Translations under genes and position numbers: made by a program | Shown here: piece by piece, positions 32,284 through 37,074 of the stretch | Numbering within the stretch: position 1 is the first letter of the stretch | Layout: each line of letters begins with the position of its first letter | NCBI GenBank assembly: GCA_945869405.1 | Contig: CAMBPD010000006.1 | Coordinates: 1 to 37,074, forward strand | DNA: 37,074 bases | Source of the DNA: Chryseobacterium gleum | GTDB taxonomy: Bacteria; Bacteroidota; Bacteroidia; Flavobacteriales_D; Sanyastnellaceae | Direction: 5' to 3' | The notes under the pieces: generated by a model | The model's database searches: none | Told to the model about the DNA's origin: nothing | What the model saw: the letters and a program-made list of their open reading frames with translations, nothing else

Positions 32284-32316
32284 TTTTGCTTTCTGCAAAG
32301 CTATCCTTCCCTACTT

Positions 32317-32451
32317 GGCCATTCCGCTTTGCGGGTTTAAGAAGTTGGCGATTTCGGTGCACAAAACTGTCTGCTATCACAAATGTTTCTTTGGAAAACC
32401 GACTTCCTGTAAACACTGATCCGCCAATTTCTTAAACCCGCTGTTATAGCC
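32317..32451 (-). repeat. attC-like folded repeat (site A)
   Basis: Read on the minus strand: core GGCTATAAC, then CAGC, left arm GCGGGTTTAAGAAATTGGCG, a variable loop, right arm CGCCAACTTCTTAAACCCGC (19 of 20 positions complementary), spacer AAAGC, core GGAATGGCC. It is homologous to the sites at 36018-36153 and 36676-36810 (shared ATAACAGC, TTGGCGG, GACAGTTTT, CGAAATCGCCAACTTCTT). The last core does not match the first, so the site is degenerate. Confidence 0.65.
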
Positions 32452-32468
32452 AGTGCTTTCAGCTGTCA

Positions 32469-32771
32469 TTATAATTGAAGAGTCAATTTTAAGTGTCCAC
32501 CAAGTCCTTGCTGAATTATTTTCATAAGTGTCGAAAGGCGAATGTCAGAAGAATTGTTTTCAATGCGTGAAATGTAAGATTTGTTTGTCCCGCATTTTTC
32601 AGCAAGTTCTTGTTGTGTCATGCCGAGTTTAGTTCGAGCTTCCTCAAGCAAAACACCAAGTCTAAACGCTTCAAATTGTTGTTCCCATTGTTCGCGTTTG
32701 GGTTGTCCTTTTTTACCATACTTTTTGTCAAGTATTTGGTCTAGTGTCGTGATATTACTTTTTGTTTTCAT
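32469..32771 (-). CDS. higA: HigA-type antitoxin, XRE helix-turn-helix
   Basis: 100 residues. An N-terminal linker helix (to about 45) is followed by a Cro/C1-type HTH: ARTKLGMTQQELAEKCGTNKSYISRIENN (45-73). The C-terminal segment (DIRLSTLMKIIQQGLGGHLKLTLQL) fits the HigA family closely. It binds and neutralises the adjacent toxin and represses the operon. It overlaps higB by 17 bp, downstream of the toxin gene as is usual for higBA. Base composition is much more AT-rich than the neighbouring accA, consistent with acquisition. Confidence 0.9.
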   Translation of the reverse strand: MKTKSNITTLDQILDKKYGKKGQPKREQWEQQFEAFRLGVLLEEARTKLGMTQQELAEKCGTNKSYISRIENNSSDIRLSTLMKIIQQGLGGHLKLTLQL

Positions 32772-33102
32772 TTTGATATTCCTCCATTATTTTAACTGCT
32801 TTTTCTAATTCTTGTCTTGGTGTCTTTTGAGTTTTCTTTTGAAATGCGTTTCCAAGAACTACCAAATTTCCCTTGTCGAAGAATGAGAAAATTCGGTAAA
32901 TATTTCCAGCTACTTCAACTCTAATTTCATAAAGTCCTTTTGTGCCTTCTAAATGCTTAAAATACTTCTCTGGAACTTGTCGAGTTACACGAATTAAGTT
33001 TAATGTCCACTCAATTTTAGCTTGAACGTTGACAGGTAAATTCTCGTAAAAGTCGAGAAAATAGTTTTTATAAGCAATCACTTGTCTGTCGTAAGTCACC
33101 AT
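32755..33102 (-). CDS. higB: HigB/RelE-superfamily toxin
   Basis: 115 residues. The HigB-type pattern is visible: RQVIAYKNYFLDFYENLPVNVQAKIEWTLNLIRV, KYFKHLEGTKGLYEIRVEVAGNIYRIFSFFDKGNLVVLGNAFQKKTQKTP, and a helical tail ALEKAV-like ELEKAVKIMEEY. Members cleave mRNA on the ribosome. The annotated ATG at 33102 is only 1 nt from a TAACTTTG promoter element, so the mRNA is probably leaderless; GTG at 33099 is an alternative first codon. It is upstream of and overlapping higA. Located in a cassette-like insertion between accA and the 608-residue protein gene. Confidence 0.9.
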   Translation of the reverse strand: MVTYDRQVIAYKNYFLDFYENLPVNVQAKIEWTLNLIRVTRQVPEKYFKHLEGTKGLYEIRVEVAGNIYRIFSFFDKGNLVVLGNAFQKKTQKTPRQELEKAVKIMEEYQNENKK

Positions 33103-33103
33103 G

Positions 33104-33135
33104 CAAAGTTAACTATTCAGACAACTATTTCCAAA
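33104..33135 (-). promoter_or_regulatory. Predicted higBA promoter TTTG-N20-TAACTTTG (minus strand)
   Basis: On the minus strand TTTG (33135-33132) and TAACTTTG (33111-33104) are separated by 20 bp. The -7 element ends 1 nt before the higB ATG. The cassette therefore carries its own promoter. Confidence 0.7.
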
Positions 33136-33191
33136 TTTATTTTCGGTCTGTTTGTCGTTTTACGGAAGTCTCTTAGCATTGGCCATTCCGA

Positions 33192-34250: not shown

Positions 34251-34985
34251 TTACTCTTCGTCTTGCTCTATGGTCTCGGAGGTGGAACGTGCTGTAAGAC
34301 CGCGCAAATGATCGAGCTCTCGTTCGGTGAGGTTGCGCCACTTCCCAACGTCTGTATCGAGTTCAATGTTCATTATGCGTATTCGCTGCAAACGTGTTAC
34401 CGCAAAACCCAGGTATTCGCACATTCTTCGAATTTGTCGGTTTAGCCCTTGCGTTAGGGTGATGCGAAATGTATGGTTGCCAATTTTCTCTACAATGCAC
34501 GCACGCGTGACTGTATCGAGTATGGGGACACCCGAAGACATTTCTCGAACGAACCGATCGTTGATGGGTTTGTTGACCGAAACGATATACTCCTTCTCGT
34601 GGTTGTTGCGCGCCCGCAAAATTTTATTCACGATATCGCCATCGCTCGTGAGCAATATCAGACCCTCACTTGCCTTGTCGAGACGACCAACCGGAAAAAT
34701 ACGTTTGGGGTGACCAATAAAATCGACGATATTATTTTTCTCAAATCGATTATCCGTGGTGCATACGATGCCCACTGGCTTGTTGAGGGAGATATAGACG
34801 TGCTGCTCACCCGTTGGACGGATGGATTTGCCATCTACGCGCACGTCATCGCCTTCCTTCACTTTGGTGCCCATTTCCGGCACGTTACCGTTGATAGTAA
34901 CTCGGCCATCCTCTATGAGCGTATCTGCAGCTCGACGCGAGCAATAGCCAACTTCCGAAAGGTATTTGTTGATGCGCGTTTCCAC
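34251..34985 (-). CDS. rluF: 23S rRNA pseudouridine synthase, RluF-like (RsuA family)
   Basis: 244 residues. An N-terminal S4 RNA-binding domain ([29 protein letters not shown], 5-33) precedes the synthase domain with [32 protein letters not shown] and the catalytic D103 in [10 protein letters not shown], then [23 protein letters not shown] and [18 protein letters not shown]. The [20 protein letters not shown] and [16 protein letters not shown] segments are those of RluF, which modifies U2604 of 23S rRNA in E. coli; RluB/RsuA are less likely. It is upstream of accA on the same strand with a 102-bp gap. The C-terminal tail is acidic and short. Confidence 0.92.
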
Positions 34986-35060
34986 GGGTGCGAAGGTAGG
35001 TTTTTTTTAGGGATGAAGAATTATTGGGGGCGCGAAAAACTCAATCTTATTCGGAATAAA

Positions 35061-35110
35061 TTGAAAGTTGAAGGTTGAAGGTTGAAAGTTAAAGGTTGAA
35101 AGTTGCAAGG
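35061..35110. repeat. Seven-copy degenerate heptanucleotide repeat
   Basis: Seven consecutive 7-bp units of the form TTGAAAG / TTGAAGG (variants TTAAAGG and TTGCAAG) run from 35061 to 35109. The tract sits upstream of rluF, on the border between housekeeping and accessory DNA. Slippage-type origin is likely; the function is unknown. Confidence 0.85.
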
Positions 35111-35129
35111 CGCGCCATCCTACAATCCA

Positions 35130-35422
35130 TCACCTATCATCCTCTTCCATTGCATCGGACGCGGCGGGTGCACTCGCCGTGTTGATCTCTGTATGCCCAA
35201 ACTGTCGGCCAGAATAAGCTAGGCGCCGCACCACCACAAACAAAAAGCAGCGATCACCGGCACGATGCGCGCGGTGGTGAATGTGAGTTTTGCTTTCGTG
35301 CGGGTGCGGTGAACGGCCAACGAGGCAATTGTGCCCAGTATCCACAGATTCACAAATGCGCAAAACCGTGTGTCTTGGCGCACAACAATGGCGCTTACCA
35401 AAACACCTAGAGTGTTCTCCAC
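35130..35422 (-). pseudogene. Probable remnant of a membrane-protein gene
   Basis: From GTG 35422 a frame reads 67 residues with three hydrophobic stretches (TLGVLVSAIVV, FVNLWILGTIASLAV, RIVPVIAAFCLWWCG) and a basic loop, then stops at 35219. In the next frame the sequence continues without a break as YSGRQFGHTEINTASAPAASDAMEEDDR, an acidic tail ending at 35130. This looks like one C-terminal part of an integral membrane protein broken by a frameshift near 35220. The N-terminal part is absent. The family is not recognised. Without a homologue, a real small gene remains possible. Confidence 0.35.
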
Positions 35423-35465
35423 CGCTTGGACGTTAAAAAATAAGTCGCAACACTACCCCTTGCGA

Positions 35466-35505
35466 GTTTCGACTTACTTCGTATATTCGTATGTAAAAGC
35501 GAAAC
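35466..35505. repeat. Imperfect inverted repeat before the first cassette
   Basis: GTTTCG (35466-35471) and CGAAAC (35500-35505), with partly complementary inner bases (CTTAC / GTAAAAG). It lies 30 nt before the core GTTATGGGC. It may be a worn recombination site or a terminator-like fold. Nothing else recognisable lies in 35423-35535. Confidence 0.3.
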
Positions 35506-35538
35506 GAATAGGGATTTTGTGGCGCATATAAAGGAGTT

Positions 35539-35700
35539 ATGGGCAAGTTTATTAAAAGACAGCCAAACGAAAAACGACAGACAAGAGAGCCGCCAAAGGA
35601 TAACTTTGATAGTTCCTTAAAGATATTTTGTAAAATTGATAATCAAAATTGGAGACCAGAAACCAATATAAAAACGGGGCGTATTCCGAAAAGCCTATGA
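35539..35700 (+). CDS. Small conserved cassette-leader reading frame (53 residues)
   Basis: ATG lies inside the core GTTATGGGC, preceded by AAGGAG at 35531-35536. The product begins MGKFIKRQPNEKRQ and contains TREPPKDNFDSS, FCKIDNQNWRPE, ending IPKSL. A homologous frame of the same length starts at 36148 in the next unit; the two share TREPPK(D/E)NFDSS, FCKID(N/K)Q(N/K)WRPE and PKS, with mostly conservative or synonymous changes and one in-frame 12-nt length difference, which favours coding. Against it: a single-base difference near the end changes the C-terminus, and the second copy lacks an ATG at this place. The peptide is basic and soluble and is not recognised. It precedes the lipoprotein gene by 27 nt. 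Confidence 0.5.
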   Translation: MGKFIKRQPNEKRQTREPPKDNFDSSLKIFCKIDNQNWRPETNIKTGRIPKSL

Positions 35701-35727
35701 GTAGGAACAAATTTTAAATTTTAAAAA

Positions 35728-36012
35728 ATGAAAAAAATAATTAGATTTTTTGCCTTAATGATTTTTGCTTCTATTATTATTACGTCATGCAGCTTATCGA
35801 CAAATGATTTAGCAAAAGAAGTTGAAAAAAGCATGAAAGAAAGTGAACAGTTTAAAACAAATTCAATAACAATCAAAAGTTTAATATTGACAAAAAAGTC
35901 AGGAAACGAATATAATGGTATATTAGAAACAACAGAACCTAATGGAGCATTTACATATAGTGTTGAAGTCATATACGATGGTAACAACATGACATGGAAA
36001 ATAATTGAATAA
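35728..36012 (+). CDS. Small lipoprotein of cassette 1
   Basis: 94 residues. Lipoprotein signal peptide: KKIIRFFALMIFASIIITSC with C21 in the lipobox ITSC. The mature part has a helix (LAKEVEKSMKESEQFKT) followed by three or four beta strands (SITIKSLILTKK, EYNGILETTE, FTYSVEVIYDGNNMTWKIIE). This resembles small NTF2-like or DUF4878-type lipoproteins, but I do not assign it. Codon use and composition are strongly AT-rich, unlike the chromosomal genes of the window. The stop is 5 nt before the attC-like site, as in integron cassettes. Confidence 0.75.
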   Translation: MKKIIRFFALMIFASIIITSCSLSTNDLAKEVEKSMKESEQFKTNSITIKSLILTKKSGNEYNGILETTEPNGAFTYSVEVIYDGNNMTWKIIE

Positions 36013-36017
36013 AACCT

Positions 36018-36153
36018 GCCAATAACAGCACCTACAAAAAATTGGCGGTTAAGTGGTTAAATGATACTTTGTGCTTCGTATCAAGTTCACTGGTGGTAGA
36101 CAGTTTTCGTCTTCGAAATCGCCAACTTCTTGTAGCTGCAAAACGTTATTGGC
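36018..36153 (+). repeat. attC-like folded repeat (site B)
   Basis: 136 bp. Outer cores GCCAATAAC (36018-36026) and GTTATTGGC (36145-36153) are perfect complements. Inner arms GCACCTACAAAAAATTGGCG (36028-36047) and CGCCAACTTCTTGTAGCTGC (36120-36139) pair at 17 of 20 positions. The right spacer is AAAAC, and the 72-nt centre holds a further small hairpin (TGATAC / GTATCA). R''-L''-loop-L'-R' with a GTT/AAC core is the attC plan. Confidence 0.75.
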
Positions 36154-36309
36154 AAGTTAAACAAACATAGCGGACAAACAAGAGAGCCACCAAAGGAAAA
36201 TTTTGATAGTTCTAAAAATTTATTTTGTAAAATTGACAAACAAAAGTGGAGACCAGAACCCACTCAAAAAAACGGGGCGACACCGAAAAGCCATATGAGT
36301 AGGGATTAA
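36148..36309 (+). CDS. Second copy of the cassette-leader reading frame
   Basis: The frame homologous to 35539-35700 is open for 53 codons (from ATT 36148 in the core GTTATTGGC to TAA 36307-36309). Conserved parts are GQTREPPKENFDSS, LFCKIDKQKWRPEP and TPKSH. In place of the ATG of copy 1 it has ATT, and no other ATG occurs before codon 50, so translation would need a rare ATT start. It may therefore be non-translated here, with the conservation reflecting descent or a leader function. It ends 13 nt before the membrane-protein gene. Confidence 0.3.
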   Translation: MGKLNKHSGQTREPPKENFDSSKNLFCKIDKQKWRPEPTQKNGATPKSHMSRD

Positions 36310-36322
36310 AAATTAATTCAAA

Positions 36323-36670
36323 ATGGCAATAATGATCGTAATTTATCTAGCAATCATAATATTAATGATTGCTTCATTGTGGACAACCTTTTCTAAAGCA
36401 GGTAAACCTGGGTGGGCAGCAATTGTACCTATTTACAACTTAATTGTGCTTTTAGAAATTGTAGGTAAACCTTGGTGGTGGCTATTTCTTATGTTGATTC
36501 CAATTGTAAACCTTGTAATTCTAATCATTGTTTATCACAACCTCTCTTTATCATTTGGAAAAAGTGGTGGGTTCACAGTTGGTTTGATTCTGTTGGGTTT
36601 TATTTTTCTTCCAATACTAGCCTTTGGTGATGCAAAGTATGTTGGTCCAGGTGGAAACCAAGTGAATTAA
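36323..36670 (+). CDS. Small DUF5684-like membrane protein of cassette 2
   Basis: 115 residues with three to four hydrophobic segments. The pattern WTTFSKAGKPGWAAIVPIYNLIVLLEIVGKPWWWLFLMLIPIVNLVI, then FGKSGGFTVGLILLGFIFLPILAFG and a short hydrophilic tail DAKYVGPGG, matches the small DUF5684-type family of inner-membrane proteins, often found beside or within signal peptidase I-like genes. The role is unknown. Composition is AT-rich like the other cassette. The stop is 5 nt before the next attC-like site, exactly as for the cassette 1 gene. Confidence 0.8.
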   Translation: MAIMIVIYLAIIILMIASLWTTFSKAGKPGWAAIVPIYNLIVLLEIVGKPWWWLFLMLIPIVNLVILIIVYHNLSLSFGKSGGFTVGLILLGFIFLPILAFGDAKYVGPGGNQVN

Positions 36671-36675
36671 AACCG

Positions 36676-36810
36676 GCCCATAACAGCACATTTGCGAATA
36701 TGGCGGGTGCATTAGTTAATCAAACATTCGCGCTTCAATCAAATTTTGATGGTAGCTTGACAGTTTGGTGCTTCTAATCCCGCCACATCGCAAATCTGCA
36801 AAACGTCAGG
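36676..36810 (+). repeat. attC-like folded repeat (site C)
   Basis: Core GCCCATAAC (36676-36684), left arm from 36686 (GCACATTTGCGAATATGGCGGG), variable loop with GACAGTTTGGTG, right arm CCCGCCACATCGCAAATCTGC (36779-36799), spacer AAAAC. The arms pair with one unpaired extra base, a hallmark of attC. The second core is expected as GTTATGGGC but reads GTCAGG, so the right end is changed or fused to foreign DNA. Confidence 0.65.
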
Positions 36811-36893
36811 TTGTGAAAAAACCTCATTCCTCAGCCGATTAGCTAATTTTCGGACTATTAGTTTGGGCCTGGGTTTATTAGAGAACGAATCTA

Positions 36894-37073
36894 CTACCCA
36901 TTTTTTTGCAGGGAATATTCTATTTGGAAAAATGACAACGCCATTGTTGAGCCTATAAGGTTGTTTTTGCAAAAGGCCAGAATGATCTTATCATAATCCG
37001 GCTTCCAATTTTTGAGTTTCTCCAGAAACAGATCAAATTTCAAAATGTTTAGCACCCGTTTGAAATTGTAAAC
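36894..37073 (-). pseudogene. C-terminal fragment of a possible IS transposase (runs off the window)
   Basis: On the minus strand a frame is open from the window edge to TAG 36894-36896, 59 residues: it opens VYNFKRVLNILKFDLFLEKL, followed by KNWKPDYDKI. The Y-N-(F/L)-K-R-x-(L/I)-N-I-L string is typical of the last helices of DDE transposases of IS1182/IS4-type elements. The tail after about residue 35 is less typical. Without the rest I cannot say whether the gene is intact upstream. No terminal inverted repeat was identified between it and site C. Confidence 0.4.
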
Positions 37074-37074
37074 A

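Follow-up and report, generated by a model that had tools for sequence, protein, structure and literature searches.

The window (the whole stretch of 37,074 nt analysed here) very probably carries a decayed chromosomal integron that has lost its integrase gene and belongs to a class found in Bacteroidota, in which the integrases are devoid of the insertion characteristic of IntI and are co-directional with the cassettes. This reading draws on the fold and conservation of the attC sites, the conservation of attI, the linkage between integrase, attI and attC, the match of cassette ends to their own starts, the bias towards bottom-strand folding, the insertion-sequence (IS) end at the array's border, and the absence of an integrase from a genome that is 86% complete. 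Two cassettes make up the array, which spans positions 35537-36804 and is bordered by an attI-like relic on the left and an IS1182-like end on the right. Its features, with scores of a covariance model (R1) built from eight attC sites, are:

35424-35536, plus strand: attI-like relic of 113 bp, 80, 77 and 84% identical to three same-genus loci
35460-35489, plus strand: candidate promoter in attI, TTG-N19-TATATTCG (Bacteroidota -33/-7 type), a sequence match only
35537-36145, plus strand: cassette 1 (TTATGGGC ... G), with limits set by attI and attC site B
35576-35695, plus strand: leader repeat copy 1, 81% identical to copy 2
35644-35711, plus strand: DUF805 RNA (RF03081) in the cassette 1 leader, 76.1 bits (cut-off 51.1)
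35728-36012, plus strand: cassette 1 gene for a putative lipoprotein of 94 aa, with a homologue in G052/L006 behind the same leader and attC
36017-36154, plus strand: attC site B, R1 144.8 bits (training sequence)
36146-36804, plus strand: cassette 2 (TTATTGGC ...), truncated on the right by the IS
36173-36292, plus strand: leader repeat copy 2, 81% identical to copy 1
36241-36310, plus strand: DUF805 RNA (RF03081) in the cassette 2 leader, 82.1 bits (cut-off 51.1)
36323-36670, plus strand: cassette 2 gene for a DUF5684 membrane protein of 115 aa (PF18936, 3.9e-30)
36675-36804, plus strand: attC site C, R1 121.3 bits (training sequence), with the IS end in place of its own R' core
36805-37074, no strand given: end of an IS1182-like insertion sequence (DDE_Tnp_1), 98.5% identical to the IS end in G005:C69; the contig stops inside it

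The original prediction had described two tandem units with folded, attC-like repeats, and both folds stand: a structure scan scores site B at 15.3 and site C at 15.8, above all of 200 dinucleotide shuffles of window positions 34800-37074, in which the top score was 13.3 and none reached 15. As single-stranded DNA, site B folds at -32.8 kcal/mol on the bottom strand (z -7.65) and at -23.3 on the top, and site C (36675-36814) at -26.8 on the bottom versus -25.5 on the top (z -3.3 and -3.1). The successive cassettes carry different genes in the orientation of their attC, and the stop codon lies exactly 5 nt ahead of the R'' core in both (TAA-AACCT-GCCAATAAC and TAA-AACCG-GCCCATAAC), just as had been noted before. 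A 53-aa open reading frame at 35539-35700 was rejected as a gene, as it is not kept in cassette 2 or in L054. Sites that fold well and follow stop codons at 5 nt could instead be transcription terminators or RNA stability hairpins, with cassette movement incidental or brought about by homologous recombination. We regard this as highly improbable, because it is the bottom DNA strand that folds better, because the R cores vary with the start of the cassette and not with the end of the gene, and because the sites are arrayed next to a recombinase and attI; moreover, 58 of 61 cassettes in related phage arrays have their gene antisense to attC, opposite to what bacterial arrays show, and the sites are therefore not 3' terminators in phages.

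In cassettes from relatives, the cores follow the rule expected of integron cassettes. The start cores of the window cassettes (GTTATGGGC in cassette 1 and GTTATTGGC in cassette 2) are each matched by the end core of the same cassette (GCCAATAAC and GCCCATAAC) at 8 of 9 positions, with one base swapped. The core mismatch reported in the original prediction is thus real, at one base per cassette relative to its own start; we read it as cores that differ at a single base, and as weak evidence for any rearrangement. A crossover point other than G/TT, proposed at the same time, finds no support in the 103 cassettes of relatives, which obey the classical G/TT. Across these, 5.25 of 6 positions of the end core agree with the start of the same cassette (74 perfect) and 3.10 of 6 with the next start (p=2.7e-13), a comparison that does not lean on the model even though the placement of sites does, R1 covering the cores. 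Such a match to the own start is predicted, because circular cassettes would cross over at G/TT. Of the two strands, the bottom one folds more stably in 75 of 101 sites from bacteria and in 78 of 84 from phages, versus 26 of 101 control segments, and gene and attC share their orientation in 65 of 75 cassettes from relatives.

Sites of this family recur well beyond the array. On this genome R1, whose E-values are rough, finds six sites: the two from its training set (B and C) and four outside it, namely one in the window at 32316 and one each in C146, C53 and C168. Over 150 nt, site B shares 86.8% identity with a Chryseobacterium plasmid site that has a TauE cassette on one side and a MazEF pair on the other; a multi-cassette Emticicia plasmid has a site 72% identical to it. 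In L054, which holds a four-cassette array and comes from a different family of the same order, two cassettes end in a core exactly complementary to their own start. The genes that precede attC copies are as varied as the integron interpretation of the original prediction anticipated, with products that include a lipoprotein, DUF5684, toxin-antitoxin, type III restriction-modification, TauE, zeta toxin and TraB. The exact 16-base core pattern has 17 matches in IMG/VR, most of which we read as chance, L038 and L042 alone proving real; no similar DNA was found in cultured phages.

The right border of the array is the work of an insertion sequence. GTCAGG, which follows site C and had been taken for an odd core, is the end of the inserted IS. 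It was also considered, and rejected, as a secondary insertion site or attI, since it occurs within a gene and at other loci: the IS copy in G005:C69 has a near-complete transposase and an end that lies inside a gene, without an attC, and the same end is found at C53, C185, C205 and G005:C54. The presence of a multi-copy IS on the right flank and of a repeated leader might suggest that the units belong to a single transposon or to a dispersed repeat family and are not integron cassettes. This is the least credible of the alternatives and already contradicted, given that the sites follow unrelated genes, that the IS lacks an attC neighbour in G005:C69, and that the own-start core rule holds in 103 cassettes. 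Separately, the IS1182-like element ends exactly at the attC R' in three loci (window 36805, C53 and L107 10384), and may favour attC as a target.

The left border ties the array to an integrase. In a search of the genus with the left and right flanks of the array joined as query, the left flank matches three same-genus loci over 56-114 nt at 77-84% identity, and all matches stop one base before the TT of the first cassette. In a same-genus genome (L109), this sequence starts at the 3' end of a gene for a tyrosine recombinase of 352 aa and is followed by attC cassettes, forming a complete integron; as it adjoins the recombinase 3' end there, we conclude that 35424-35536 is an attI and that the window has lost its integrase. 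The relic opens with about four final codons of the lost integrase gene, adjoins the first cassette and ends in GCATATAAAGGAG right before the crossover with TT, resembling the consensus CATATAAACAAG/TT of 66 attI sites. The proposal of an attC cluster lacking an integrase therefore stands as regards the attC-type sites and the missing integrase, but not as regards a merely loose set of attC, as the array begins at an attI relic. This left sequence had gone unremarked in the original prediction, as had the repeated leader with its DUF805 RNA and a third attC in the window. A promoter may lie within attI, judging from its match to the Bacteroidota consensus. Copies of attI without an integrase recur in L058 (about 1100-1330), L110 (4673) and L107 (3439), each beginning near the last codons of an integrase, as if such platforms spread or form repeatedly. 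In L107 (G005:C54, 3439-10524), a single cassette position between attI and attC holds a type III restriction-modification system of 6.3 kb.

The L109 recombinase represents a large family with the same genetic neighbourhood. It is 53% identical over its length to the recombinases of two Chryseobacterium plasmids. The Chryseobacterium plasmid NZ_CP041688 carries a complete integrase-attI-attC arrangement, composed of the recombinase, an attI of about 105 nt and several attC cassettes, and a C. oryzae plasmid combines the integrase and the same attI with a VOC cassette in which end core and start agree. A scan of GTDB genomes returned at least 504 relatives of the recombinase, the best 80 of which were taken for locus analysis, with R1 matches accepted at E 0.05 or better. 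Around these 80, all 132 attC matches lie on the integrase strand and 131 of the 132 on its 3' side. Where at least 1.5 kb is available 3' of the integrase, attC is present in 40 of 49 loci, the other 9 giving no match. Contigs break less than 300 nt from the 3' end of the integrase in 17 cases and at its 5' end in one, a pile-up that would be expected next to a repeat array. In 66 loci, the region after the integrase stop ends near CATATAAACAAG/TT, mostly 80-110 nt away, and these regions are enriched in a TAnnTTTG box within 50 nt of the stop (31 of 66 relatives, 2.1 expected) and in an inverted repeat of at least 7 (29 of 66 loci, 4.3 expected).

By sequence, these enzymes are set apart from IntI. 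They lack the IntI-specific insertion of about 41 residues near patch III, and the distance from KGxKDR to HxLRH is 58-59 residues in the Bacteroidota integrases (59 in the L109 type) and 53-54 in those of phages, versus 100 in IntI1 of plasmid R46. The IntI model TIGR02249 matches the recombinase with 206.6 bits and a gap in the match (cut-off 265), and the best curated family is the XerA-like NF040815, with 215 bits (cut-off 220). In a small tree that includes a single IntI, the Bacteroidota and phage integrases group separately from both IntI1 and XerC/D, although their group also takes in some recombinases that have no visible array. Residues 1-65 of the L109 integrase form an N-terminal extension of about 65 residues (KWD..LRAWLVPDT), which we take to resemble a HARP-like domain and which is apparently duplicated in a 524-aa integrase of G141 (L118). 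In the window's own genome, the search for an IntI that the original prediction had suggested returned only XerC/D-like recombinases, 32-33% identical, in a draft of 220 contigs that is 86% complete and where an integrase could be missed.

A second location in the window, between accA and the next gene, bears an isolated toxin-antitoxin cassette:

32315-33190, minus strand: isolated cassette neighbouring accA, with the 12-bp repeat CGGAATGGCCAA at its borders
32316-32452, minus strand: attC of the isolated cassette, R1 84.5 bits, E 1.5e-13, outside the training set
32469-32771, minus strand: antitoxin (HTH_3)
32755-33102, minus strand: toxin (Gp49/HigB-like)

The orthologous place in the same-genus G005 lacks the cassette and has a gap of 136 nt. 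The 12-mer CGGAATGGCCAA at the cassette borders is likewise present within the accA gene of a relative. That this cassette looks like an off-target insertion speaks for a further explanation of the main array, namely that it is an ordinary CALIN whose cassettes would be off-target insertions made by a classical IntI from another location. Such an origin of CALINs is known (PMC8618304), and IntI1 experimentally recombined an attC of the Bacteroidota phage Polaribacter phage P12002L (PMC9892861). We nevertheless consider it improbable: the array begins at the conserved attI of another integrase, its type of attC tracks the insert-less integrase across dozens of loci, and TIGR02249 at E 1e-60 had no match in 399 genomes of the order, a set that held no positive-control genome.

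The same kind of system is found in viral sequences. In L042, a 126.8-kb IMG/VR contig with genes for a T4-type RNA ligase and kinase, about ten attC lie beside a related recombinase, and in 28 such contigs all 107 attC matches are located 5' of the integrase and point away from it. The phage integron contigs (L042, L206-L285), which combine an insert-less integrase with long attC arrays, reach 362 kb; their viral status comes mainly from the IMG/VR classification, as the terminase phrog_2 is clear in one of eight of these records. No relatives of the phage integrase were found in cultured phages at 1e-40.

Both window cassettes carry a leader of 120 nt ahead of their genes, duplicated at 81% identity. 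Copy 1 is 83% identical over 180 nt to a cassette leader in another family, in the L054 array, where one of the four cassettes bears the same leader and DUF805 RNA. The RNA also lies directly behind attC in other families (L006 1275-1560, minus strand, and L054 3255-3440), once together with a homologue of the window lipoprotein. The idea that every cassette of this kind has the leader as a constant component was rejected, as it is absent from eight other arrays. Both window leaders score above the curated cut-off of the DUF805 RNA motif (Rfam RF03081), but differ from it in setting, as they lie within mobile cassettes and before genes other than DUF805. The RNAs may serve a regulatory role in the cassette leaders.

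Under the decayed-integron reading, a tyrosine recombinase gene would once have stood immediately left of window position 35424 and pointed to the right, its stop codon followed directly by attI. Circular cassettes would have entered at attI, the recombinase joining attI to the bottom strand of attC, folded as a single strand, with the crossover between G and TT; both catalysis by the L109-type recombinase and a single-strand mechanism for attC recombination are inferred here. The recombinase gene would then have been lost but for its last few codons, leaving two cassettes, and the IS1182-like element would have truncated the array where the second attC has its R'.

More broadly, we think it likely that Bacteroidota and their phages use a distinct class of integrons, with recombinases devoid of the IntI insertion, that hundreds of genomes carry, that escapes detection by tools which demand the insertion, and of which the window holds a relic with RNA-leader cassettes. 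The insertion has been termed essential for integron function (PMC8138268) and is used as a defining feature (PMC9668308), and published surveys report hardly any complete integrons from Bacteroidota, with a single genome, Salinibacter, in IntegronFinder 2 (PMC9024848). No paper on this class was found among openly accessible journal papers, and the class is apparently widespread in Bacteroidota but overlooked so far. If so, hundreds of insert-less Bacteroidota integrases would exist, which in the loci tested accompany arrays that obey the core rule, be they chromosomal, plasmid-borne or in phages, a large unseen pool of cassettes (restriction systems, toxin-antitoxin pairs, transporters) would open, and what an integrase needs in order to read a folded attC would become directly testable.

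Compared with the classical class 1 integron (IntI1, with plasmid R46 as control), the Bacteroidota class shares attI, cassettes, the R''-L''-loop-L'-R' plan of attC, the G/TT crossover, the cassette-borne R'' and the bias towards bottom-strand folding. It differs in the spacing between KGxKDR and HxLRH (59 residues versus 100 in IntI1, for want of the insertion of about 41), in the attC spacers (about 1 and 5 nt versus 5 and 6 in the orfD site of R46), and in an integrase that is co-directional with the cassettes and has attI at its 3' end; R1, built from Bacteroidota sites, had no match in R46. The reverse integrons of Treponema likewise have an integrase that reads the same way as the cassettes, and their integrases are counted as IntI. 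With CALINs, whose origins have been reviewed (PMC8618304) and which have been described in phages (PMC9892861), the window has in common two attC in a row and no integrase nearby, but it retains an attI relic with the last codons of the integrase and has an IS end as its flank. The CALIN of Polaribacter phage P12002L, in which no integrase was reported (PMC9892861), is similar in belonging to a Bacteroidota phage and in having genes opposite to attC, with spacers of 3 and 6 in our scan and a weak R1 score of 24.1 bits. Finally, the recombinases of the class share their catalytic fold with XerA, XerC and XerD, to which they add about 65 N-terminal residues and a linkage to attI/attC arrays.
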